IMG/VR virus record: IMGVR_UViG_3300032047_000008
Span: 1-63,916 of that record
Strand: one strand, 5' to 3'
DNA: 63,916 nucleotides
DNA from: a virus
Shown: piece by piece, positions 7,680 through 23,713 of the stretch
Layout of the letters: the number at the start of each line of letters is the position of its first letter
Position numbering within the stretch: the first letter of the stretch is position 1
Notes under the pieces: model-generated
Databases searched by the model: none
The model's input: only the letters and a program-made list of their open reading frames with translations
Told to the model about the DNA's origin: nothing
Made by a program: the position numbers and the translations under genes

Positions 7680-8899
7680 ACACATTCATATACACAAGTT
7701 CGGACGCAACAATATACAAGCATAAAAATAACGAGAATCTAAACACGGGTTTTGATGAAATCTTAGAACTGACGAATGAGTTTTCTGAAGAACGTGGACA
7801 TCATGTTAGTCGGTTGGTACTAAACCACAATATAGATTTTACCAGTGTTTCCAAAACCCCCCTGATAGACTCTGAGTTCTACCTAAACTTAAAAATAACA
7901 GAATCCAAGGAACTTGTTGGAGATTCCGAAATCGAAGTGTTTCCTCTGAAGAGATCCTGGGAAGAAGGTCATGGTAGAAAATATGACGGAATTAACACAG
8001 GAGTCACATGGAATCTTACATCAGATGCGGATAGTTGGTCAACTCCCGGAGGAGATTTTTACGAAGCAGATGAGTTGTATGATAATTACGGAATAGAAAA
8101 AATACCCACATTTGTGTTCAAACAAAGAACATCAGATGTAGTCTTAAACATAACAGAATATGTTAAGTTGTGGATTTCTGGTTTTGTCGATAATAATGGT
8201 ATATTAGTAAAATTTAAAAACGAAACAATTTCGTCGTGTGGTGGTGTTAGTTTTTTCTCAAAAGATACGAATACGATATATGCTCCGTATATTAAAACTT
8301 CTTATTATGATTATATATTTGACCCGTGTGGGTGTGAAAAAATCCCAACTATAAAGTGCTTGTATGACTCATCTACATCTGATTTGGTTATCAATACAAG
8401 TGGTTCTTTGAATGAATTAAGTGAAACATTAGGTTGCATAAGTGGTACGCACGATACAAGTGGTTCTGTGGAACTGAGTCACACTATGGAGTATTCATTT
8501 GTAACAAAAAAACCAAGTATATCATACATTTCACATGATAATCTGTCGGTATCTTTGGTTGGGTTGAAATCAAAAATTTCCACAAAAGAGCAACTTAGAA
8601 TCAAAGTGGCGGTCAGAGACAAATATCCAGTAAAAACATTTAAACCAAGTTCATGTTACACACACGACAATTTTGTTGATTTTCCAATTTATTATTCTGT
8701 TATAGACGCAGATACACTTGAACGAGTTTTGGATTTCAACAAATATTCTAGAGTCAGTTGTAACCACACCGGTCATTATTTTGACTTTGATTTTGGGTGT
8801 CTTGCCGTAGGCCGAGTTTATTATTTTGAAATTAGAGTCGAGAGTACAAATCAAACAAAAATATATACCAACAAAATAAAGTTTGTTATAGAACGATGA
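7676..8899 (+). CDS. Virion protein with DNRLRE-like beta-sandwich domain
   Basis: 407 residues, coupled to gp6 by an ATGA overlap. Residues 1-200 read like a DNRLRE/CBM-type jelly roll: an early strand with the paired SRLVLNHNIDF pattern, then EVFPLKRSWEEGHGRKYDG and TGVTWNL, and finally VVLNITEYVKLWISG with NNGILVKFK. This fold is common on extracellular adhesive proteins. The second half is rich in beta strands and ends YYFEIRVESTNQTKIYTNKI, like a C-terminal immunoglobulin-like module. A baseplate-attached or fibre-connector role is inferred from fold and position. Confidence 0.6.
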   Translation: MNTFIYTSSDATIYKHKNNENLNTGFDEILELTNEFSEERGHHVSRLVLNHNIDFTSVSKTPLIDSEFYLNLKITESKELVGDSEIEVFPLKRSWEEGHGRKYDGINTGVTWNLTSDADSWSTPGGDFYEADELYDNYGIEKIPTFVFKQRTSDVVLNITEYVKLWISGFVDNNGILVKFKNETISSCGGVSFFSKDTNTIYAPYIKTSYYDYIFDPCGCEKIPTIKCLYDSSTSDLVINTSGSLNELSETLGCISGTHDTSGSVELSHTMEYSFVTKKPSISYISHDNLSVSLVGLKSKISTKEQLRIKVAVRDKYPVKTFKPSSCYTHDNFVDFPIYYSVIDADTLERVLDFNKYSRVSCNHTGHYFDFDFGCLAVGRVYYFEIRVESTNQTKIYTNKIKFVIER

Positions 8900-9486
8900 A
8901 AAAAAACTTAGATTTTTTAGAAAAGTATGATTTCAACCTAGAATCATATAATGAGTATATTTCAAAAAAAATATCCAAAGATTTGCTGGATGATTTTGGT
9001 AATTTAATACTAAGTGCAAATATAGAAGAATCAAATATTACCGAAGTTGAAAAATTCATCTTGAAAGTTCCTGCGAAAAAGAAAAAGTTAAAGAAAACAC
9101 AAGTTGAACTTTTTATGGATACTCATGTAACTGAGTTCACAGACGTGGAAGACGAGGGGGATGTGGTATCTGACTCCGAGGGGCCGATAGTCGACTTAGC
9201 AGATGAAATTGACAACGAGGTTAGATCACAACTCGATCAAGAACGTATATTACAGACTCAAATCGATGAAATGTCAGATATTCTAGATTCCGAAATTGAA
9301 AAGGGAGTTCACTTTCAAGAGAAATCTTCAGAAAACTTCACCGCCGCAAAAAATATTATAATATCACAAAGGATTTCTGCTGGTGAGGGAAGTTCTCCAT
9401 CAGACTTTAGTAACAAGTTTCCCTTTTTACCTTTGGGTGAAACAACCGAATCCGAAGTGGATACATTTCCGTTTTTATCCGAGTAA
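8896..9486 (+). CDS. Acidic protein of the baseplate operon, unknown function
   Basis: 196 residues, overlapping the previous gene by ATGA. It has a Lys-rich patch near residue 60 (PAKKKKLKKTQ), then a long acidic region (TDVEDEGDVVSDSEGP) and helices. FPFLPLGE and FPFLSE motifs occur near the C-terminus. The repeated FPFL could be a short docking motif. No known domain is recognised. Position between the beta-sandwich protein and the giant gp7-like protein suggests an assembly partner. Confidence 0.5.
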   Translation: MKKNLDFLEKYDFNLESYNEYISKKISKDLLDDFGNLILSANIEESNITEVEKFILKVPAKKKKLKKTQVELFMDTHVTEFTDVEDEGDVVSDSEGPIVDLADEIDNEVRSQLDQERILQTQIDEMSDILDSEIEKGVHFQEKSSENFTAAKNIIISQRISAGEGSSPSDFSNKFPFLPLGETTESEVDTFPFLSE

Positions 9487-9493
9487 ATGAGAT

Positions 9494-12400
9494 ATGAGTG
9501 AATATATAAAAATGGTTAAACAAGCACCCTCTAATCAAGAATTTGATTTTCCAAGATCATCGTTGGTTTCGGAAGATTTGTACAGAATTGTGGTAAGTGA
9601 CAGTGATGATAGTCCTGTGTACGACTTCGGCCGAAATCCAAAGGATATAGCAGAGTTTTCAATTTACTCAAATGATAACAAAGTAATAAAGACAAAAGTA
9701 ATTAAACCAGTTGATTCGTTTAAACGAAAAACTTTTGATTTTACTGATTATGGTGGAGTAAGACGAGCAGGATCGTTATCACTGTTCGACACAAAGTATG
9801 AGGTCACAGAAGATAATGAACTCGTATTATCTCCCACACACGAACTAAGAGAACTCGGAGAACAAGGTGGTTCTTTCTTGGTGGGTGTATCTATGAAGCA
9901 GGAATTAATAGGATCATATGAGTCCACTTCTAAACTTCTGATTCAGGACATTTCACCGAGTAGAACTGAAATTAAGATAATACCAAGTTCACTAAAAACA
10001 AGTCTCAGACCACTCGATGTGGCTCTTAATGTAGAATATTTAAATTATTTTAACAAAAAAATTCCAGTTTCTCATATTTTTTATGAAATACCCTCGTTAC
10101 TTAGTGAAATTGGAACTAGAGTGCAGGTCGAAAATTTAATTGCAAATGGGTATCTTGTAGAAAACTTAAAAGAACGACTCTATGAGTTAGTAGACTTTTA
10201 TAATTTTGCATCCTTAGATAGTTTTTCACATGATTGTGATGGGGTGTATAATGAAATAAAATCTTTGTACTTAAATACATTCTTATACAACTACAATAGT
10301 ACATATACCCGTGGAGAAATTTCCAACGAATACGAAAAGTGCATAGACTATATATTAAATAAAACACCTAAGTTTAAAAATACCTCAGATAAATTACATA
10401 CTAAGTATAAATCACTATATAAAGAGGTTCTTATGACGATGTTCAATTTTAATAGATTGGGTAATCTGTTTGATGAAAAATTCGAATCATATCTATCGAC
10501 CAGCATGGTATTTGAAACAGGCGAGCAAGTTTCTGTATTATCGACAGCTCGCAGTACAGACAACATTTCTGATCCAGTTAAACACAGACCGTTGCTATTT
10601 AAACTTCAACAACCACTGTCACATGACATTAAAGTTGGTGCATCATTTCATTTGCTTGGTTTATTTTATTCCGACGACATTATACAAAGAACTATTTTGT
10701 ATAAAAAGGTAAAACCAAAATTATATAAACTTAGAAATCCTGATTTAAGTGGTATTGCTTCGCAGGGTACCAGAAGCTATACATCAGAGCAGTTAAATAA
10801 AAATAAATCACAAATAGAAAAAGAGTCTTTATTAAATCTCAATTCTACTGATCCTGGTATATTAGAGAAAATAAAAGAAGTTGAAACTGAGTGGAGAGAA
10901 GAGGTATTCGGATCACCAATAAAAATCACAGAAGAAATATCAAATTATTTTAACAATCAAACTGAGGACTATTATCTGTCCGTTGATTATTCTGATTTTA
11001 AAAATTTCATAAGATATTCGTCTGCCCGTAAACGACTAGATGTTTTTATTTTAAAATTAACTAAAATTTCAAAATATGACAGAGAGTTAGAGGAAATACG
11101 AAAATCATATAGGGCTAGTACACCCGAGAAGTTTGGTAGACTCTCATATGACACGGAGATTGAACGATTAAACAAAGAAAAAGTACAAATTTTAAATTCA
11201 CTGGACGGATACGAGAGGTTTTTATATTTTGAGGATATAACCGAACTGACCGACTCAGCTACAAAAATAAAAATACGAATAGATGAACTAATGCAAAAAA
11301 AGATCTCACACGGAGATTCTTCGGGTGAACTTGACTCTAAAATAAAAGAATTAGAAGCAGACTTACTATACACTTATATAAGTTGGCCAAGAGCAGAATT
11401 TAATTGTGATAGTGTAAATGATTGGAGTCCAAATGCATTTGATTACAAAGAACACGATGCTGTGTATATGGAAGACCACATTTATATACTAACAGGACCC
11501 GATCCAGTTAACTCACTTGATATACCCGGTGTCAGTGATAGGTGGTCGTTATTTTGCAGTTGTGATGAGTGTGTTGGAAAAAAAATTCCACTAAATACAA
11601 CATCTTATTCATTCTTAACATCACGTGACTATTATCGCCCTATGCCAATACCGGAGGATATGGAAGATTTCTCAAAAACAACAGGATATACTTGGTATTC
11701 TGAGAAGGCTCGTGAAGCTGAAGCATATGATAAGCAAAACGACAATTCTTTTGCCAATAACACACCTGAATTTATTGTCCGTGATCCTGACAATGAAGAA
11801 TATTTTGAATTTTTATCATTTATTGGTCACCAATTCGATTTAATACATTTGTATGTAGAGGGAGTTGGTAATATTAAAAAACCTCTTAACAATCCCGATA
11901 AGGGAATTCCAAACGAATTGGTCTCTCATATGCTTGGATATTTTGGTGGGAGTTTTGAGGGGTATGATGAAGGAGAAATAAATTCACTGGCACGTGACAT
12001 CAAGACAGATGAAGAACTTGCGTTTGTTAAGAAGTTTAAGCAAAAAAAACACTTAGTGTGGAGACGTATACTAAATAATTTACCATATATTTTAAAAACA
12101 AAAGGAACAGAAAAATCCATTCGTGCTTTGTTTAGGTGTTATGGAGTACCAGATTATTTATTTAAAATACGAGAATTTGGGGGGATTGAATATAACACCG
12201 AAACCAGTGATAAGGTATTGTATACATTTGATTCGTTTGATTATTTTCTTAAACTTGAAAGAGACAATCAGTATATAGAACTTGACTGGAAAACTGAAAC
12301 TTATCAATCAAGGTGTGTGGAATTAAAATTTTCATTTAATGAAGATCTGTGTGACATAACATCTGATATAGAAATTCTAGCATCAAAAAAGGATCTGACA

Positions 12401-15400
12401 AACGACCAATTAGATTCCACAAATTGGAGCTTTGGGTTCGCGTCCGAACCAACAAAAAATCACACCACCACGGGAGGATATGGTTGGGGTAAGTTTTATA
12501 TTAAAATCGGTCAATTTATTACATATTTGGCAGATATAGATGGTAATGAACAAGTATATGGATTTTCGTCAAAAGAATTTAATGTACTGATTCAGGTAGT
12601 TGAATCTGAGCGGTGGACTGATTCTGGAGTAGAAGTTTTTGTAAAGAGATACTCCGATGAAGATTTAGTTTACAACGGATATTCTAAAATAGCTCTACCC
12701 CGTGCAGATATAAATAATTTTTTAGGTTCACCAAAACTCATTTTCGGAAACTATTATGGTTCTAATTTTTTCGGAACACTTGATAGATTGCGAATATATA
12801 CAAAACCAATTAAAGAAGCTCGGTTTGAAAACCACATAAAGTTCAATCAATCGTATGATGTAGATGATCCACATGAACTGGAAGACATCTTAGTGTTTAA
12901 GGCTAATTTTGATTTTCCATATAAACTAAATGATTTATTGGGCAACTGGGACGGAACAAAAACCGACTACATATTTGGTGACAAGGTTTTATATGATGAG
13001 AGTGTTTTTGTTTACGTGGGGGACGATGATAACAATACCAACGACCAACCGAATGAATCTCCTGCGTGGGAGGTGGACCAATCTGGAGTGGAGTCTCATA
13101 TACAAAACACATCATTTAGAAAAGACTCACCTGAGTGGGCAACTGTGTATAATTTTACTAGTGTTGAATATCCATATGACTTCGGTGGAAGTAACAAGAG
13201 AAACTTTGCCAAACTTCCTGCATACGGTTCACAGGTTTTTAATAATAGTAAAATTAGAATTGAGACTCAGATACTCGAAACTCAGTTGTCTGTGTCAAAG
13301 AGAAGTACTAAAAAAAGTGGTGATCGGTTAACAATTGATACCAACAAACTTGGAGTTTACTTTAGTCCATCTGATTTAATTAATCATGAAATTTTAAGAT
13401 TTTTTGGTGATTTCGATCTCGGAGACTATATAGGAGACCCGTCTGAGTTGTACAATAAAACTTATAGTGGGTTTAATGAAATCAAAAATTTATTTTTTAA
13501 AAACGGGTTCGGTAGAATTGATTTTTCTTATTATCTATCCATTTTAGAATCATATTTGGACCCGTCTTTATTTAAAAATATAGAAAAAATAATTCCGGCC
13601 CGTACACTGTTAGTTTCTGGCCTGGTAGTAGAACCATCTTTACTTGAACGAAGTAAAATTCAAAGACGGCCAATTGATAACGAGTTGGTGGTCTATGACG
13701 ATATCCACATCAATGTGGGTATTAAAAACAAAAATATAACAGACCTGGCTAATAATAGATCTTATTATAATCTAAACAATGAAAACGCACATTGTCTGAA
13801 ATTAAATATAGCACATACAACACAGACTTCAAATACATATCCATCTGAGTTTAATTCTAATGTATATGAAAATATTCCAGATGATTTAATGTATGGAATT
13901 AGTTCGTATCGTGGTACATTTTCTAATCACATCGCATCGTTTGACAATAAGTCATATGAACGATATGTAAAAATAGATAAACAATCACGAAAATACAATT
14001 CACTGAGAATATACGGAAGTGTGCTTAAGAATTCAAACTTAAATTGTCAAATTTTCGGATCGGTTGGGGGTTCACACAATCCTTCGTTTTATGTTCATAA
14101 AGATGTTACATTAAATGGAATTGCATTATATGACAATCTTATATCATCGGAACTGTATATAAACGACTATGCTCTTTTTTCATTTTCATTTTCTGGACAC
14201 ATCATATCGGGCCGTGTCCACGGTTGGGCCAACGTAACTATCCAAAATGGAACAATTAAAAACTTTATTGTAAATGGAAGGTTTGGTGGTACATTGTTTT
14301 CTGAGTGTGATTTAAGACTTACAACATCTCAATTCTCAGATGATATTGATAGAATAATTTATAAAAAACAACTATCGGGAGCTCCGACAAAAAGTACATC
14401 GGGAGGATCGGACTCTGTGTACACTAAGATAATTTCAAACAAGACAACCTCCGAAATAAATTTAATTAAAATTCCAGATACAATATCTCACAGATTTTCT
14501 CTTAATATAGATAATAATACATTTTTTACATTAAAAAATAATTCAGGAAAGTATATAACCGCAGACGGATTGTATAGATGTAGGATAAATATGTTTGTTG
14601 CAAGTGAACTAATCCCACCCCCAATTTGTACATTTAACATCAGCTGGACACGAATAGATGACCAAACAAATAAAACGAATGATGTTTTGAATTTCAAAAA
14701 GTCTGCCTACGATTATGTACATAATTTACAGCTATCTGAATCAACTGATTTATCTAAAATTAAAAGTGCATTTGAACTTCCTGAGTTGGTGGTGACGGAC
14801 ACAACAAAACTAACTACTTCCTATAAAAAAACTGAAGCAGAATATTCATGTGAAGATAGACTGGGTAGGTATGAAGTTCCTGAAATTATTAATCGCACGA
14901 GGATTACGTCTGAATCTAATACACTGGATGCTTATCTGGGTGAGGTGATCTACCGAAAATCATATAAAATTCCCTTTAATTTTAATCAATCACTAAAAAC
15001 TGACAAAGACACACATGAATCTGACCTCAAGTTGGCCGTAAACTATGACGGAGTTATGTTAAACCTTGAAGTCACAGATTCAAATGAAATTGTGTATAAA
15101 ACCAATAGTGTGCAGTATAAATTAACCGACTTACAAAATTTAACTAACATAAATTTTAGTGAAGGTGTGTTGAGTGTTGTTACTGTAGACAACTTCTCCG
15201 CAATAGTCGGTGATGTAGTTTTATTAACAGATTCAGTTTGGTCTGCTGAGAGTGGTTTGTTATTTAACTTAAATGAAACCTATTATACATTTATACGTAC
15301 AGAAGATGTTGGTGGAACGCATAAACGAATTATACTTTCCATACCAGACTATATGAAAAACTGGCCAAATTCTGTTGAATATGTAGGTGGTGGGATATTA

Positions 15401-17239
15401 CATAAGTTGCCGTCTGAGGTAGATTACTATCATAAAATCGGAGGGGTTTCGTATAAACTAACCACATCGTGTTCGTATCATAACGATCCGGTCAGAGTTT
15501 CTATTCCAAAAAAAGTAACGACCACACCTGACGTAGGGGATACGATAAATTGTGTTTTTCGTGAAGGTGCGTTTTTATGGAAAGAGTTCGGCCTGCGTGT
15601 ATTAACTAACGCGGTGGTACTGAAAGTATCTCAGATAAACGACATATACGATAAACAACACGGAGAGACGTTGATTAGAGTAGAAACAGAAGAGACCATA
15701 AATGGAAATCGGTATGTTGAATTTGTACCATCTGCGGAATATGTATATGCATTTTCTGTCATACCCACCGATAACCAAAACAGACCAAACTATCAAGTAG
15801 AACTCTCGACAAAATATAATATTCAACTTGGGCCATCCCCCTCACCCATTTCTATTCAGAAAATTTATCACAATATTTTAATAGATAACATAATTGAACT
15901 TGAATCTCCATTTGACTATTTTAATATAGTAGATGTGGTCCCTTCTGGGAAAAAAATATTAAACGGAAACTTAAAAACTCATCGGCGATATTTTTCAACT
16001 ACCAATAAACAAGAATCTAGAAAATTATCTAGATTACACTGCCGACGATCAAGCAGTAATTTAAATAATACTATATCTCCAGACGGAATCACCAACAACT
16101 CTCCACCGATAGTGCGTACTCGTAGGTCATCTCTAAAAGACGGAATGGGCGATTCGTTTTGGTATTTAGAAGACAAGACATACTCGGTTGTGTTGCCGTG
16201 TGGAGTTGGTGATCGGGATGTTTCCGAAACACCTACCCCAACCACTACACTAGAAGTAATGGACGGTTCTAATTTAAATTCAGATTCTTTGGTTTTTTAT
16301 TACACATTTGAGAATGTAAATTCTGATGAGACACTTGTATATGACCTATCCGGAAATGAACGTGATGGTAATATTAATTTAGGTTTAGTTAAAACCGGTG
16401 GCCTCGGTCGACAATATAAAAAAGTAATGTCACTTGATAATAATATAAAACCAAATCAGAATAATACAAATGCGTATATAGAGATTCCGACAAATTCCGA
16501 TGTTAAAACCGATAAATGCACCATAAGTTTTTGGATAAAACCTATTGGTGAAAGTGCAGATAACTCCGGGATAGTATTTAATAATTCCACGGAGCCAACT
16601 AACCGTCATGGTGTGGTTATAAATCCCAATGGAAATAAGTTTTCACTTGGATACACTTGGACTTCCTCTGTTGATTCATATTTGGTCGATTTAAATGTAA
16701 AGTTAGAAGAAGATGCTTGGAATCATGTTTCTATTATTATATATAAAAATGGAATTACCCGTGTGTTTTTAAACAAAACGTATGTTAAAATGTATGATTT
16801 GGGGGTTTATCACGACATGGTAAATTTTGATAAACTTGAGGTGGGTAGATTTTCTGGTATGATAGATGACATACGATTTTATACCGACGAACTTTCATTT
16901 GGTGAAGTTGAATTGAAGACGAGTGCCAGTGGTCAAGTTGCAGAGTTGTATGACACAACTCGTGATTCGAGTAATTTTACAACCGAACCATCAATCGAGT
17001 GTCAAGAGTTCCCCTTTTTGCGATTTTTTGAATTTGATTATTATCAAGACAGACATTTCACCGAGGCCTCGATTTGGTACAGTGAGAATGTCCATCGTAA
17101 AGAAGACATATCACTCGAACCTGAACTCGCAGCTAGAATGAAACACGCAATTTCTGGTGGACCAAATGAGGGTATGAGAAAATTTGCATCTGTAGAATTT
17201 ATGGGAAATTTGTGTGGTCGTGTAAAAGAAGCAAGTTAA
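9494..17239 (+). CDS. Giant baseplate wedge / host-contact protein, gp7-like with LamG domains
   Basis: 2581 residues. Around residue 861 it carries the segment RILNNLPYILKTKGTEKSIR followed by ALFRCYGVPDYL, a motif found in myovirus tail protein I/gp7-type wedge proteins. Two concanavalin/LamG-like beta-sandwiches are visible: one near residues 930-1130 (ends LDRLRIYTKPIKEARFENHI) and one near 2255-2470 (LSGNERDGNI; CTISFWIKPIGE; IDDIRFYTDELS). Two aromatic GD-V-Y motifs (about 650-690, HDAVYMEDHIYILTG; about 1155-1195, FGDKVLYDESVFVYVG) resemble CBM5/12 carbohydrate-binding modules. T4 gp7 is 1032 residues, so much of this protein is added surface modules. Assignment as gp7 rests on the central motif and on following gp25-gp6. 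Confidence 0.6.
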   Translation: MSEYIKMVKQAPSNQEFDFPRSSLVSEDLYRIVVSDSDDSPVYDFGRNPKDIAEFSIYSNDNKVIKTKVIKPVDSFKRKTFDFTDYGGVRRAGSLSLFDTKYEVTEDNELVLSPTHELRELGEQGGSFLVGVSMKQELIGSYESTSKLLIQDISPSRTEIKIIPSSLKTSLRPLDVALNVEYLNYFNKKIPVSHIFYEIPSLLSEIGTRVQVENLIANGYLVENLKERLYELVDFYNFASLDSFSHDCDGVYNEIKSLYLNTFLYNYNSTYTRGEISNEYEKCIDYILNKTPKFKNTSDKLHTKYKSLYKEVLMTMFNFNRLGNLFDEKFESYLSTSMVFETGEQVSVLSTARSTDNISDPVKHRPLLFKLQQPLSHDIKVGASFHLLGLFYSDDIIQRTILYKKVKPKLYKLRNPDLSGIASQGTRSYTSEQLNKNKSQIEKESLLNLNSTDPGILEKIKEVETEWREEVFGSPIKITEEISNYFNNQTEDYYLSVDYSDFKNFIRYSSARKRLDVFILKLTKISKYDRELEEIRKSYRASTPEKFGRLSYDTEIERLNKEKVQILNSLDGYERFLYFEDITELTDSATKIKIRIDELMQKKISHGDSSGELDSKIKELEADLLYTYISWPRAEFNCDSVNDWSPNAFDYKEHDAVYMEDHIYILTGPDPVNSLDIPGVSDRWSLFCSCDECVGKKIPLNTTSYSFLTSRDYYRPMPIPEDMEDFSKTTGYTWYSEKAREAEAYDKQNDNSFANNTPEFIVRDPDNEEYFEFLSFIGHQFDLIHLYVEGVGNIKKPLNNPDKGIPNELVSHMLGYFGGSFEGYDEGEINSLARDIKTDEELAFVKKFKQKKHLVWRRILNNLPYILKTKGTEKSIRALFRCYGVPDYLFKIREFGGIEYNTETSDKVLYTFDSFDYFLKLERDNQYIELDWKTETYQSRCVELKFSFNEDLCDITSDIEILASKKDLTNDQLDSTNWSFGFASEPTKNHTTTGGYGWGKFYIKIGQFITYLADIDGNEQVYGFSSKEFNVLIQVVESERWTDSGVEVFVKRYSDEDLVYNGYSKIALPRADINNFLGSPKLIFGNYYGSNFFGTLDRLRIYTKPIKEARFENHIKFNQSYDVDDPHELEDILVFKANFDFPYKLNDLLGNWDGTKTDYIFGDKVLYDESVFVYVGDDDNNTNDQPNESPAWEVDQSGVESHIQNTSFRKDSPEWATVYNFTSVEYPYDFGGSNKRNFAKLPAYGSQVFNNSKIRIETQILETQLSVSKRSTKKSGDRLTIDTNKLGVYFSPSDLINHEILRFFGDFDLGDYIGDPSELYNKTYSGFNEIKNLFFKNGFGRIDFSYYLSILESYLDPSLFKNIEKIIPARTLLVSGLVVEPSLLERSKIQRRPIDNELVVYDDIHINVGIKNKNITDLANNRSYYNLNNENAHCLKLNIAHTTQTSNTYPSEFNSNVYENIPDDLMYGISSYRGTFSNHIASFDNKSYERYVKIDKQSRKYNSLRIYGSVLKNSNLNCQIFGSVGGSHNPSFYVHKDVTLNGIALYDNLISSELYINDYALFSFSFSGHIISGRVHGWANVTIQNGTIKNFIVNGRFGGTLFSECDLRLTTSQFSDDIDRIIYKKQLSGAPTKSTSGGSDSVYTKIISNKTTSEINLIKIPDTISHRFSLNIDNNTFFTLKNNSGKYITADGLYRCRINMFVASELIPPPICTFNISWTRIDDQTNKTNDVLNFKKSAYDYVHNLQLSESTDLSKIKSAFELPELVVTDTTKLTTSYKKTEAEYSCEDRLGRYEVPEIINRTRITSESNTLDAYLGEVIYRKSYKIPFNFNQSLKTDKDTHESDLKLAVNYDGVMLNLEVTDSNEIVYKTNSVQYKLTDLQNLTNINFSEGVLSVVTVDNFSAIVGDVVLLTDSVWSAESGLLFNLNETYYTFIRTEDVGGTHKRIILSIPDYMKNWPNSVEYVGGGILHKLPSEVDYYHKIGGVSYKLTTSCSYHNDPVRVSIPKKVTTTPDVGDTINCVFREGAFLWKEFGLRVLTNAVVLKVSQINDIYDKQHGETLIRVETEETINGNRYVEFVPSAEYVYAFSVIPTDNQNRPNYQVELSTKYNIQLGPSPSPISIQKIYHNILIDNIIELESPFDYFNIVDVVPSGKKILNGNLKTHRRYFSTTNKQESRKLSRLHCRRSSSNLNNTISPDGITNNSPPIVRTRRSSLKDGMGDSFWYLEDKTYSVVLPCGVGDRDVSETPTPTTTLEVMDGSNLNSDSLVFYYTFENVNSDETLVYDLSGNERDGNINLGLVKTGGLGRQYKKVMSLDNNIKPNQNNTNAYIEIPTNSDVKTDKCTISFWIKPIGESADNSGIVFNNSTEPTNRHGVVINPNGNKFSLGYTWTSSVDSYLVDLNVKLEEDAWNHVSIIIYKNGITRVFLNKTYVKMYDLGVYHDMVNFDKLEVGRFSGMIDDIRFYTDELSFGEVELKTSASGQVAELYDTTRDSSNFTTEPSIECQEFPFLRFFEFDYYQDRHFTEASIWYSENVHRKEDISLEPELAARMKHAISGGPNEGMRKFASVEFMGNLCGRVKEAS

Positions 17240-17259
17240 TTTAATAAATATTTCACTTA

Positions 17260-17273
17260 TATAAATATTTATA
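17260..17273 (+). promoter_or_regulatory. Palindromic late-promoter element TATAAATATTTATA
   Basis: TATAAATATTTATA is a perfect palindrome containing the T4 late consensus TATAAATA on both strands, and on the + strand also ATATTTAT, eight of the nine bases of this phage's box. It lies in the 68-nt gap before ATG 17308, so a leader of roughly 30 nt is possible. Confidence 0.5.
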
Positions 17274-17307
17274 TACTAAAACTTATCAAAAAATATATAT
17301 ATTAGTA

Positions 17308-17974: not shown

Positions 17975-19465
17975 ATGGCCATTTTTAAAGAATTAGATGA
18001 AACTGATAAGGTGGCTGGTAGAGTTACATCTGTACATGATGGTTTGTTTAGTGGGGATAACCCATCCGAGTTGGTAAATTTCTTCTATGATGAAGAATCA
18101 CACGAAACTCCGCTGGCCATGGCGTCGTCAGTAAAAGACATAGAAGATAACTGGATCTCACCAAGGAAAGAGGATTATTATACTGATATATATCACGAAG
18201 AAGTATATGTAGCTGGACTTTTAAACCAAAATACAGAACAACAATTTTCAATATCATACGGTCATGTCAATGGATTTGGTAGTCCGATTAAAGCTGCATT
18301 CAATAATAAAACCCCACAGATAACAAAAACTGTATATAGTCAGTACAAAAATATATTATTGAATCCTGATGATAAACGATTTACATTTACCCGTAGGGTT
18401 GATAACTCTTTTGTTGGATATGACGCTGACAGTATTCATATTATAAATTTTAGCACGGCCCGGATGAAAGAAAGAATAGACGAGGGTAATTTTTTATTTT
18501 CCCTTGGGGTATCTGTGGACGATGATATAAATTATAAAGTATCTTTTCAAGATGCAAGTGTATTTGGAACACGACTTAGTTTTGTTGCATCATCACCACA
18601 ATTTGGTCGTGTATTTGATTTAGTTAAAGTCGGAGAATCCGACCGGTATAACAACGATGATTCGGATGTCATAAAAATGACAACAGAGCCAGAAAGTTCG
18701 ACTGATTCATCAGGTTTTGATATTAAATATTCACCTGTTAGCAATCTTGGATTTGGGTTAGTGTACCCAGACCTTGGTATTATTGTAATAAACACCGTAG
18801 CCATTTCTGAACAATTGTGTGAAGGTTTAGATGTTTCTGTTAAAAAATACGAAAAATTAAAAAATACAAGACCAACTGGTTATGTTAAAGAAGAAAATGA
18901 AGGTGCTAGATTTGCCTGGCATGGGAATGTATCTCCTTTTTATTCTACAACTTCTGGTGAACTAACCAGTGTAAACGAACTTGGTGTAGAAGACACAAAT
19001 CGTGCAGAGAGTAATAATATTCACAATCCAAATACATGGTTAACGACAGACTCTGGTCAGAGTCTGCTAAAACGGGCAGGTGGAGATAAAAACTATCAAA
19101 ACTTTTTGAAATTTGCCACAGCTCTAAAAAAAGGAAGAAAGTTTGAATGCAGAAGTACAGAAATGATACCATCTAAGCATTATTTTATCCGAATTAAAAA
19201 CACGGATTTTAATTACAGTAACAATCCATCATTTGTATACCAGGGGTACGAGGCCCGAACACTTGCCACTCGTGCAAATGCAGAGTTGGATAATTACTTA
19301 GGAAGAATCAGATTCGACTCTTTTGTAGAAGACCCACGTGTGTATATTACAACTGTTGGTTTATATAATGATGACAATGAATTAGTGGCGGTGGCAAAAC
19401 TAAGTCGACCAATTTTAAAAACTTTTGACTCAGAGGCTCTTATTAAAGTAAAATTAGATTTTTAA
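17975..19465 (+). CDS. Tail structural protein sharing a C-terminal module with the downstream fibre
   Basis: 496 residues. A helical/beta N-terminus (IFKELDETDKVAGRVTSVHD) and a segment NQNTEQQFSISYGHVNGFGS suggest a baseplate-associated protein. The last 40 residues (TTVGLYNDDNELVAVAKLSR, then P) closely resemble the end of the 1402-residue fibre encoded next (TTIGLYDGLSLVGVAKLGRP), implying a common attachment or trimerisation module. It has no obvious enzyme motif. It lies one base after the previous stop. I consider it a structural component of the baseplate rim or fibre network. Confidence 0.6.
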   Translation: MAIFKELDETDKVAGRVTSVHDGLFSGDNPSELVNFFYDEESHETPLAMASSVKDIEDNWISPRKEDYYTDIYHEEVYVAGLLNQNTEQQFSISYGHVNGFGSPIKAAFNNKTPQITKTVYSQYKNILLNPDDKRFTFTRRVDNSFVGYDADSIHIINFSTARMKERIDEGNFLFSLGVSVDDDINYKVSFQDASVFGTRLSFVASSPQFGRVFDLVKVGESDRYNNDDSDVIKMTTEPESSTDSSGFDIKYSPVSNLGFGLVYPDLGIIVINTVAISEQLCEGLDVSVKKYEKLKNTRPTGYVKEENEGARFAWHGNVSPFYSTTSGELTSVNELGVEDTNRAESNNIHNPNTWLTTDSGQSLLKRAGGDKNYQNFLKFATALKKGRKFECRSTEMIPSKHYFIRIKNTDFNYSNNPSFVYQGYEARTLATRANAELDNYLGRIRFDSFVEDPRVYITTVGLYNDDNELVAVAKLSRPILKTFDSEALIKVKLDF

Positions 19466-19504: not shown

Positions 19505-22500
19505 ATGATCAAGAGACTCAAAAGTTCTGATAAAACTATTAGGCCGTTTACAACCTTTAAGTCGTGGAAACATTCAACTGTTGACAATCTTGATTCACTT
19601 GTGCTTGAGCAGCCATTATATGACTTAAAAACTCCGTCTGGTGATATTATCTATTCAAGTAAAACTTGCTTACAAATTAGTGATATATTAAAGAACGAAT
19701 ACGGGTTGGAGTTGGATGCTTGCAAACACCCAACCATAGACTTAGAGTCTGTCAAACTTGAAAAAAAAATTCATAGTAATGTTAATTATGAAAATGGTAT
19801 AGTGGTTTCTCCTGAAGAGATTAACACCTCAGACAGAGATGCGTTCCCTATCAAAAAAACAAACGGAAAAAAAACAAATGGAACATTTTATCCATCTGAT
19901 CATCCGAGGTTTGATAAAACACATGAGTTATTGAATTGGGACGGAAGTTATCAGAGATTGGTGTACAATAATATAAAGCATTTATTTTATAATGATTATT
20001 TTGTTGAGCATTTTGATTATACTAGAAATAAAAAGTTAAATATAAAAAACCCACGAATGTTGTTTGGGGTCGAGAGTGCAGAATACCACGACCCCACCGT
20101 GCTAGAAGATATTGACCAGGGAGAATCATATACAGGTCTAAAACTTGAACGTCGTGTTATTGAAGACGAAATAACTGTAGTTGAAATTTCTCAAAAAACT
20201 TTTGGTGATAAAATAAAACCTGGTTCGGTTCAAATACGAGATAACAGTTCAATGTATGATACCATTGATGTGGTGGATGACGGTTATACTAATTTAGTTA
20301 CAAATACATTTACATTTTCCGACATTAACACAATTGAATTTGATGACACTGTCTGTGGGTTGCATGAAAGTCATCAGTCCAACTCGTTTTCCTTTGGAAA
20401 ATCAACAGCTGCGTATAAAGACTATTTACTCGTTGGAGCTCCTGTGAGTGTAGACACACCAGACGAATCGCAATCTGGGTTGGTTGTTTTATATAAAAAA
20501 GATCAAGCAACAAACAATTTTAGGTGTATTCGTAGTTTTATGTGTCCGTTTACTCAAAATGGTTTGGCACTGGAGCAGCGTCAAGACCACAATGATCTAT
20601 TGTTCAGTGAATTAAGTGGGGTACTTCTTGGTAAGGACTACTCGTTAAATGACCAGTTTGGTAATGCGTTGGAACTAACAGAGACTACCTGTGTAATTGG
20701 CTCACCACAGACACACATTCGGGGTACCACATCCGAGTCAAGAACCGGTCACGTATTTGTTTACGATAAAAACAAAGGTGGTGTTGATAATTGGGGGTTG
20801 GTAAATATTATCGAGGGGGTCCCTGAAACTGAGTTCGGGTACTCGGTATCCGTCTACAATGAAAAAATGGCAATTGGAGCTCCTGGTGCTATGAATGGTC
20901 GTGGTGTTGTGTATATTTTTGAAAAGAAAATACGAACAGAGGATAGTCCGTGGATTCGTCTGACCGATGTACCTGAAGGTTATGAATTCAACCAGGAGCA
21001 GAATACGAGGGTTGGATATCCATCTGGTGAAGAGTTGATAAAAGTAAATAAAGATACAACCAGGTGGAAAATTAATAGCGTTATACCACCGGGATCGCAA
21101 CTTGGGTGTTTTTATTCTTCTGAATCAATTAACATAGATTCAATATGCGACTCCGGTAGTTATCTATCTGGTGAAACTATAACTAAAAAAACAGATGATA
21201 TAATAAAACGGTATAGAAGACCGGGAACATGGATCTCAGGAAGTAATGTGTCTGGAACATACGAATCCGGATGCGTTGTTAATCCGGTAATTGAGTCTGG
21301 TAACTTTCTATCTGGTTGCATTGAGTCTGGTAACTTTCTATCTGGTTGCATTGAGTCTGGTAACTTTCTATCTGGTTGCATTGAGTCTGGTAACTTTATA
21401 TCAGGTTGCATTGAGTCTGGTAACTTTATATCAGGTTGCATTGAGTCCGGAACAAATGTACACCCCACCACGATAGATTGGAGGGAGTTTATATCTGGAT
21501 GTATGGTCGAAGATATACTACCTGGAGTAGAAATAACATCAGGAAACTTAGAACCAGTTTATTATAGTAGTTGTATATCAGGAAGTAACGAGTTCGTGAG
21601 TGGAAGTGTTTGTCCATGTGAAGTGTATACTTTTTCAGATGAAAAAATTATAGTAGAATCTTCTATAGTTGATGAAGAACTAGACTTTGATTCCGGATAC
21701 GAACCACATGAGTACACAAATACCCCTAAGTTTGCCATAGGTGACTTTACGTGGGAACTTACTGATGTCATTTATGGAGACCAAACCCAGACAAATATCA
21801 CCCCACCACACCCGTCTACGGAAACACCAAACTCAAATGCTAAGTGTGAAAGATTTGGTGAGGTTGTAAAATTGCACGAAAATTATTTATATGTATCAAC
21901 TCCGTCTTCTGAAAAACAAATAGTATATGTTCATAAATACACGCATGGAGGGTGTCCAACGGAGTGGGGTGTTGTAAACAAGATAACACGTGAGTATTTA
22001 TGGTCATCTGAAGGTAGTGAGTTCTCGTATTTCGGTACTGATTCACGGGATGGTTCGGTTTTATACCCATATATTTACGAAAAACCAACAGATGTTTCGG
22101 GTAAGGCAGTACACAACTTTGGAATTTCACTTGATGTAAATGATAGATTTCTTGTCATAGGTGATTCCAGAGATCGTGTGTATAAAAACAATTTAATTGA
22201 AAATGAGGGTGGGGTTGTATTTGTATTTTCTTCTAATGAAAATTTACATTTCAAATATAAGATATTTTCACAAGAAGATAAAGAAGAACCAGATACATTT
22301 AGATTTGGTCAGTCTATTTCGTTATATGAAACAAGCTTGGTAGTTGGGTCACCTTCAATAGAAACTAGTAATATAACAATAGATGATACTGGTAATTTAC
22401 ACGCAGATGACTATTTTTTTGGAGTATCAACGTCAAATCAAGAGTTTATAGAATTTGGAGATACTCAAATGAATACAGTTCAGGGAAAAACTTATTATTT

Positions 22501-23713
22501 TGATTTATTAGATAGTAAATACGAATCGCTAAAGACGGTAACATCCACAAAAGAGAAGATGTCAATACGAAAACAATATGGTTATTCAGTTTCAATTACA
22601 TCTGAGTTTATTTATGTAGGCTCCCCCATACTTGGGACATTTCCACAATATGGGTTGGCTACATTTGACGAAATTGATATAGGTGTGGGTAAATCACAAG
22701 CATTATTTTCATATTATGATAAAACTTTATATAGTTCAAGTTTTTCTCATACGAACTTATCTGGATTGGTTGGTTTGGTAATGACATACGATTCAATTAC
22801 AATAACCAATAAAAAACAACTTCAAGTAGGAAATATATTTTATAAGAACGGAATAATCGTTTTATCTGGAATAAAGTCTGGATACATGAAAGACTTTATG
22901 CAGAAAAGTGGCTACTCGGGTTATGAAATCAAATTCAAAGGTATGCATACCCTACATGAAACTGAAATTTTATGTAAAGTCGAACCGAACGAGTTTAATA
23001 TGAGTACTAACCCAACCTCTGTGGTACGTGATAAAATTTTATATGACATTAATGGGGACGGTAAATTTGATATTTTTGATTTGATTTTTATATTCAAGTT
23101 TCTAACCGATACATCACCTGTATCCACGCAAACTCAAGTAGAATTCACCGACACCGAACTTGAAACGGGTATATCGGTGGAACAAGATACAATGTGGCCT
23201 AACTCAGATATAATACTAACTGAGTCTGAAGATGCCATACTTAAATTTTTTGTAAACGAGTCATCTAATGTAAAAATGGACGAATATTCACTATATTTGC
23301 CATATTTGCGACTTTTAAAAGAACAGGGCCACTTTGACATAAATAACGACGGTTTGTCAAACAGAACAGACGCAAAAATTATACTTCGTTACTTCCGTGG
23401 AAACTCTGGAGTAGATTTGGTCGGTGGGTTGTTAACACCTGGTTCAAAGAGAAGAGTTGCTGTAGACATTATTAAGTTTTTAGACGAACGAACAGGAAAG
23501 TTTAATGGGGTAGAGATTTTAAAAGATTTTGAGTCATTTAGTGATTTAAGAAAACTTATAAAAAACGGAAAAAATTTAGATTCATTGAAACCACACGCAA
23601 CTACAATCGGCCTATACGATGGTCTTTCTTTGGTTGGTGTTGCTAAACTCGGCCGTCCAATCAAAATAACTAATAGTTATCCAATAAATTTTTTAGTAAA
23701 ATATGACGGTTAG
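19505..23713 (+). CDS. Giant fibre/adhesin: FG-GAP propeller, decapeptide repeats and dockerin-like EF hands
   Basis: 1402 residues. Seven FG-GAP-like blades can be read, each starting FG(x)S/A and ending (V/I)G(A/S)P or a variant, then a V-hydrophobic-Y/F strand. They start near residues 294 (FGKSTAAYKDYLLVGAP), 382 (FGNALELTETTCVIGSP), 441 (FGYSVSVYNEKMAIGAP), 779, 870 (FGISLDVNDRFLVIGDS), 933 (FGQSISLYETSLVVGSP) and 1023 (YGYSVSITSEFIYVGSP). Between blades 3 and 4 sits an insert with five IESGNFLSGC-type decapeptides and further SGC/SGN motifs. Two dockerin-like Ca-binding loops follow: DINGDGKFDIFDLIFIFKFL at about 1181 and DINNDGLSNRTDAKIILRYF at about 1277. The C-terminus shares the GLY...VAKL.RP module with the upstream protein. 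FG-GAP propellers are extracellular ligand-binding folds, so this is probably a receptor-binding fibre. No enzymatic motif is seen. Confidence 0.65.
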   Translation: MIKRLKSSDKTIRPFTTFKSWKHSTVDNLDSLVLEQPLYDLKTPSGDIIYSSKTCLQISDILKNEYGLELDACKHPTIDLESVKLEKKIHSNVNYENGIVVSPEEINTSDRDAFPIKKTNGKKTNGTFYPSDHPRFDKTHELLNWDGSYQRLVYNNIKHLFYNDYFVEHFDYTRNKKLNIKNPRMLFGVESAEYHDPTVLEDIDQGESYTGLKLERRVIEDEITVVEISQKTFGDKIKPGSVQIRDNSSMYDTIDVVDDGYTNLVTNTFTFSDINTIEFDDTVCGLHESHQSNSFSFGKSTAAYKDYLLVGAPVSVDTPDESQSGLVVLYKKDQATNNFRCIRSFMCPFTQNGLALEQRQDHNDLLFSELSGVLLGKDYSLNDQFGNALELTETTCVIGSPQTHIRGTTSESRTGHVFVYDKNKGGVDNWGLVNIIEGVPETEFGYSVSVYNEKMAIGAPGAMNGRGVVYIFEKKIRTEDSPWIRLTDVPEGYEFNQEQNTRVGYPSGEELIKVNKDTTRWKINSVIPPGSQLGCFYSSESINIDSICDSGSYLSGETITKKTDDIIKRYRRPGTWISGSNVSGTYESGCVVNPVIESGNFLSGCIESGNFLSGCIESGNFLSGCIESGNFISGCIESGNFISGCIESGTNVHPTTIDWREFISGCMVEDILPGVEITSGNLEPVYYSSCISGSNEFVSGSVCPCEVYTFSDEKIIVESSIVDEELDFDSGYEPHEYTNTPKFAIGDFTWELTDVIYGDQTQTNITPPHPSTETPNSNAKCERFGEVVKLHENYLYVSTPSSEKQIVYVHKYTHGGCPTEWGVVNKITREYLWSSEGSEFSYFGTDSRDGSVLYPYIYEKPTDVSGKAVHNFGISLDVNDRFLVIGDSRDRVYKNNLIENEGGVVFVFSSNENLHFKYKIFSQEDKEEPDTFRFGQSISLYETSLVVGSPSIETSNITIDDTGNLHADDYFFGVSTSNQEFIEFGDTQMNTVQGKTYYFDLLDSKYESLKTVTSTKEKMSIRKQYGYSVSITSEFIYVGSPILGTFPQYGLATFDEIDIGVGKSQALFSYYDKTLYSSSFSHTNLSGLVGLVMTYDSITITNKKQLQVGNIFYKNGIIVLSGIKSGYMKDFMQKSGYSGYEIKFKGMHTLHETEILCKVEPNEFNMSTNPTSVVRDKILYDINGDGKFDIFDLIFIFKFLTDTSPVSTQTQVEFTDTELETGISVEQDTMWPNSDIILTESEDAILKFFVNESSNVKMDEYSLYLPYLRLLKEQGHFDINNDGLSNRTDAKIILRYFRGNSGVDLVGGLLTPGSKRRVAVDIIKFLDERTGKFNGVEILKDFESFSDLRKLIKNGKNLDSLKPHATTIGLYDGLSLVGVAKLGRPIKITNSYPINFLVKYDG
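21291..21440 (+). repeat. Five tandem 30-bp repeats encoding IESGNF(L/I)SGC
   Basis: Five 30-bp copies (unit begins ttgagtctggtaactttcta). The first three are identical; copies 4 and 5 share two substitutions (tata/tcagg). The repeat places a cysteine every ten residues and leads into a degenerate sixth unit (IESGTNVHP). Confidence 0.95.

Follow-up and report, generated by a model that had tools for sequence, protein, structure and literature searches.

A baseplate-locus protein of a T4-like phage with a predicted FG-GAP propeller, confined variable inserts and a dockerin-like calcium-loop pair

The gene, its locus and its scaffold

The window, that is, the whole stretch of DNA analysed, is an entire virus record of 63,916 bp, possibly a genome fragment, in which T4-like wedge, terminase, portal and sheath genes are present. 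Its terminase is nearest to that of Microcystis phage Mel-JY01 (52%), followed by those of Flavobacterium phages of Immutovirus (51%). The contig opens, at positions 1-174, with almost six tandem copies of a 30-bp unit. The gene under study, 19505-23713, is the final large one in the tail locus and is followed by a short Gly-rich ORF and by DNA-metabolism genes. Its features and one neighbouring gene are given below.

19505..23713, + strand: whole gene, an adhesin candidate of 1402 aa with relatives in 30 viral loci
17975..19465, + strand: neighbouring baseplate-locus protein of 496 aa, carrying the same C2 module as the 19505-23713 product
19505..20308, + strand: N-terminal scaffold domain (N-domain), residues 1-268 (MIKxLKxSDK...KHLFYN...FGxKIKP...DDGxTNL), by homology to the Mel-JY01 orthologue
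20309..20959, + strand: propeller blades 1-3, residues 269-485, from leave-one-out units and predicted structure
21047..21700, + strand: hypervariable Ser-Gly insert, residues ~515-732, predicted to be disordered, differing in length and repeat in every relative
21290..21447, + strand: 30-bp tandem array with unit IESGNFLSGC (TRF, 5.3 copies, 98% matches)
21746..22810, + strand: propeller blades 4-7, residues ~748-1102, from leave-one-out units and predicted structure
22811..23029, + strand: module C1 (VGNIFYKNG...EFNxSTNPT), residues 1103-1175, by hhalign to Mel-JY01 and immuto_165
23045..23080, + strand: Ca loop 1, DINGDGKFDIFD, residues 1181-1192, ligand positions in 24/24 complete relatives
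23081..23335, + strand: partly helical linker between the Ca loops, the place of LysM in relatives L012, L015 and L019
23336..23371, + strand: Ca loop 2, DINNDGLSNRTD, residues 1278-1289, all five ligand positions in 21/24
23576..23710, + strand: module C2 (ATTIGLY...VGVAKLxxP), residues 1358-1402, sequence common to several baseplate-locus proteins

A search of 50,697 phage records returned no close relative, the only match being to a low-complexity SG repeat of Pseudomonas phage PspYZU05. PHROGs and NCBIfam held no family for the ORF, and none of the 271 pattern matches in bacterial genomes was a relative. The relatives encoded in the 30 viral loci are 1260-3150 aa long where complete and, with the protein of the window, amount to 27 distinct proteins. 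In every related locus the C2-bearing 496-aa neighbour lies upstream of the propeller gene. A further candidate adhesin in the tail locus of the window is the 2581-aa product of ORF 9494-17239, whose residues 2324-2472 match a laminin-G domain (E 1.1e-13).

The N-domain matched the N-terminus of the Mel-JY01 orthologue (WWT39517.1) by hhalign with an E-value of 4.8e-8, scoring 28.4 bits against 7.1 for the best of 1000 shuffles. Its match to immuto_165 was weak, with one shuffle scoring higher. Module C1 is homologous to both outgroup proteins (hhalign E 2e-11 for Mel-JY01 and 4.6e-7 for immuto_165), and module C2, of about 45 aa, is common to ORF 17975-19465, immuto_164/165 and five consecutive Mel-JY01 genes. 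The Mel-JY01 protein therefore shares the N-domain, C1, C2 and a location towards the end of the tail locus, whereas a laminin-G domain, of lectin type, lies between its N-domain and C1, where the propeller sits here. Immutovirus shares C1, C2 and, weakly, the N-domain, and the small immuto_165 has nothing at the propeller position. In both outgroup proteins the stretch between C1 and C2 is short and has no Ca loops. Because the outgroups have laminin-G or nothing at the propeller site and no Ca segment, the propeller and the Ca segment look, from these sequence comparisons, as if they had been inserted into an older protein of the baseplate locus in this lineage only. We infer that the direction of change was gain of these parts rather than loss.

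The propeller and its inserts

The 1402-aa product matched Pfam FG-GAP_2 with an E-value of 3.5e-20 (72.3 bits against a curated cut-off of 23). Seven FG-GAP units start at about residues 293, 381, 440, 780, 869, 931 and 1020, three preceding the repetitive insert and four following it. In a leave-one-out test, every unit outscored all 2000 shuffles, with small margins for units 4 and 7 (10.7 vs 9.6 and 12.7 vs 10.6 bits). Both position and shuffle test agree with the preliminary description, which had counted the repeats in this arrangement and had proposed that they close a single integrin-type seven-bladed propeller, to be checked by structure prediction.

An AlphaFold2 model of residues 1-1200, made with 30 homologous rows, had a pTM of 0.62 and a mean pLDDT of 60; most blade strands reached pLDDT 75-95. 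C1 and C2 were poorly predicted, and this model and that of the C-terminus overlap only in part. In the predicted structure, residues 269-1105 form one closed propeller rather than separate unrelated domains. The top VIA match to the model was integrin alpha-M (Z 30.1, 3.0 A over 357 aa), the best solved matches being the propellers of integrin alpha-M, alpha-L and alpha-X (Z about 30, 350-357 residues aligned), and in the 50 best rows the aligned part of the model started at residue 266-271 and ended at about 1096-1128. Foldseek likewise ranked integrin alpha chains first (E 1.1e-7), and the sequence profile reached integrin alpha-M (E 0.041). From these results, the seven units most likely close one seven-bladed propeller, as had been proposed.

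Like integrin alpha chains (alpha-M, alpha-L, alpha-X), the protein has seven FG-GAP repeats in one propeller, interrupted by a large insert where two repeats meet. The integrin I domain is inserted between repeats 2 and 3, whereas the phage inserts are found at 3/4, 4/5 and 6/7 and are not I domains by Pfam. No integrin-type Ca-binding DxDxDG loops were found in the later blades, the pattern search having matched only the two C-terminal loops, and the structure is thus an FG-GAP propeller, not an integrin.

Among the relatives, spacing is nearly constant at junctions N/1, 1/2, 2/3, 5/6, 7/C1, C1/loop 1 and loop 2/C2. It varies at 3/4 (75-629 aa), 4/5 (37-1457), 6/7 (28-488) and in the Ca-loop linker (68-202), these ranges leaving out a few truncated or divergent proteins with misplaced blocks. 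Large propeller inserts, of up to ~1,450 residues, are present only at 3/4, 4/5 and 6/7. In L022 (ORF 7827-17279), residues ~840-2060 are an array of ~110-aa repeats (SWKNFRENVSFSYP...) at junction 4/5, which gave no convincing Pfam match and has similar counterparts at 4/5 in L026 and L030. Another family, of ~100-aa repeats, lies at both 3/4 and 6/7 in L012 (ORF 8001-14465, residues ~500-1030 and ~1480-1560), as if modules moved between junctions.

The 3/4 insert of the window had pLDDT values below 50 across residues 515-732. In the 93% identical relative L002, the flanks of the 30-bp array are the same and the array itself is rearranged, and other relatives carry the Ser-Gly repeats SGNIV, SGSMPM and SGSYPTDTIVSGSII. 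This array is fast-evolving and probably flexible. The preliminary description had named a Cys-decapeptide insert between blades 3 and 4; its position and repetitiveness were borne out, but the Cys is not conserved: the repeat units of the SG arrays in L006 and L009 lack it, and L005 is without any SG repeat. The decapeptide is a local version of a hypervariable Ser-Gly array that differs from relative to relative and is missing in some. A functional role for its Cys, which comes and goes among relatives, was considered and found to be unsupported.

The calcium-loop pair

Pfam Dockerin_1 matched the product with an E-value of 5e-5, above the curated cut-off, and gave two matches in this gene in each of 15 contigs. 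Both 12-residue Ca loops are intact and lie 97 residues apart, well formed and much as first described (two dockerin-type loops about 100 residues apart), and both are present in all 24 complete relatives. The ligands at positions 1, 3, 5, 9 and 12 are kept by sequence in 24/24 proteins for loop 1 and in 21/24 for loop 2; some of these positions are already required by the patterns with which the loops were picked, but an independent profile search recovers the same loops. The distance between loops is 93-100 residues among relatives and 218-228 in the three that have a LysM domain between them (L012 and L015 by Pfam, L019 by alignment). The short linker of dockerins is not present. LysM is typically a cell-wall-binding domain. 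In the L002 contig (G001) a third weak dockerin-like match lies at 7682-7744, in a different frame of 740 aa.

In the C-terminal model, confidence is high only near the Ca loops and the helices between them. Dockerins were the best 2 of 37 VIA candidates for this model, at weak Z scores of 3.3 and 2.3, the match at Z 3.3 covering its full 67 residues. Foldseek found no dockerin for the same model, with E-values above 5. The pair is therefore like type I and II dockerins in its two DxNxDG loop-helix units and this weak structural match, and differs from them in the spacing of its loops and in having no cohesin partner among the 15 phage contigs. Judging from the model, it is plausible that the two halves pack as a dockerin-like domain.

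Predicted function and precedents

We consider it fairly probable that the product is attached to the baseplate of a T4-like phage and serves in host adhesion, because the position in the locus, the scaffold homology, the laminin-G replacement and the confined hypervariable inserts fit this role, as do LysM in relatives, the FG-GAP repeats of proteins annotated as virion components in other phages, and the conserved Ca ligands. The compact scaffold (residues 1-268 with C1 and C2) would anchor the protein in the virion, as its homology and gene position suggest, and the single closed propeller predicted between N-domain and C1 would be a rigid display platform whose three inter-blade junctions take variable inserts. 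These inserts and the exposed propeller face may contact the host surface. The copies of the 3/4 Ser-Gly array change between close relatives, probably by repeat slippage or recombination. The Ca-loop/helix pair between C1 and C2 would fold on itself as a calcium-dependent structural element.

A more elaborate proposal, which we put forward tentatively and with some doubt, is that the protein is the phage counterpart of the integrin alpha-I design: a propeller chassis with binding modules swapped at three junctions, plus an interrupted dockerin whose two halves would clasp in calcium round a segment open to exchange (helices here, LysM in relatives), making adhesion calcium-dependent.

The variable inserts could also reflect relaxed constraint and not selection for binding. 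The propeller may instead be a structural part of the baseplate that joins wedge or fibre proteins, with its inserts as tolerated decoration and with other proteins, such as the 2581-aa laminin-G protein, binding the receptor. FG-GAP repeats do occur in an S-MbCM6 protein annotated as gp8 wedge, and the large laminin-G protein lies in the same locus. However, immuto_165 lacks a propeller and Mel-JY01 has laminin-G in its place, so the scaffold can do without a propeller, and the inserts change fast and can be very large; we regard a purely structural role as unlikely.

Improbable, too, is the earlier suggestion that the two loops are a true dockerin that docks on a cohesin of the virion or host. 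Dockerin_1 matched in every relative tested, the profile matches dockerins of solved cellulosome proteins (E 2e-4) and the top two VIA matches were dockerins, although at a Z of only 3.3. The cohesin search that had been proposed as a check, run on the 15 phage contigs, many of them fragments, gave no family match. Moreover, loop 1 has an invariant Ile at position 10, no shared Ser/Thr recognition pair was seen, positions 10/11 are atypical for cohesin recognition and the halves are 93-100 residues apart, or more with LysM. A structural calcium module is likelier than cohesin docking. That residues 269-1105 are a string of unrelated domains is scarcely credible, since one model spans them with 350-357 residues aligned to integrin propellers, despite units 4 and 7 scoring just above shuffles.

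On the host-adhesion reading, this family of phage adhesins seems to have arisen by repeated insertions into a scaffold that stayed fixed, with the propeller conserved and the hypervariable sites confined. The confined inserts predict where host specificity would lie, and the Ca pair gives a testable calcium dependence. The family is also an example of dockerin-like pairs that occur outside cellulosomes and whose halves are held apart by a segment between them; automatic annotation would wrongly read a docking function into such pairs.

FG-GAP_2 is found in other phage proteins, namely those of the cyanophages S-TIM5 ('virion structural protein') and S-MbCM6 ('gp8 wedge') and of C48C1 and Phosso, with a Sinorhizobium jumbo phage among them, and none of these four had a dockerin match. 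An integrin-like 'hemagglutinin' has been described in the Sinorhizobium jumbo phage AP-J-162 (PMC11242549), in agreement with our BFVD match to the Atu_ph07 'hemagglutinin'. The known likeness of these T4-like and jumbo phage proteins to the 19505-23713 product lies in the FG-GAP repeats rather than in the scaffold, the insert pattern or the dockerin-like pair. According to a 2024 paper (PMC11467894), hardly any FG-GAP domains were known from viruses, so the phage cases in the literature seem not yet to have been connected. The papers found on FG-GAP in phages contained nothing on a combination of propeller, insert and dockerin-like pair, and where dockerin came up in papers on phage fibres it was only as a template, in an unrelated context (PMC5967307). 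The earlier statement that no described phage fibre has this combination thus stands for the whole, for which no precedent was found, but not for the propeller itself, FG-GAP propellers being known in virion proteins of cyanophages and rhizobial jumbo phages; what is new is the combination of parts and the insert rule. In S-MbCM6 (L035), the gene annotated as gp8 baseplate wedge is 21 kb long and holds FG-GAP_2, laminin-G and a reelin subrepeat.
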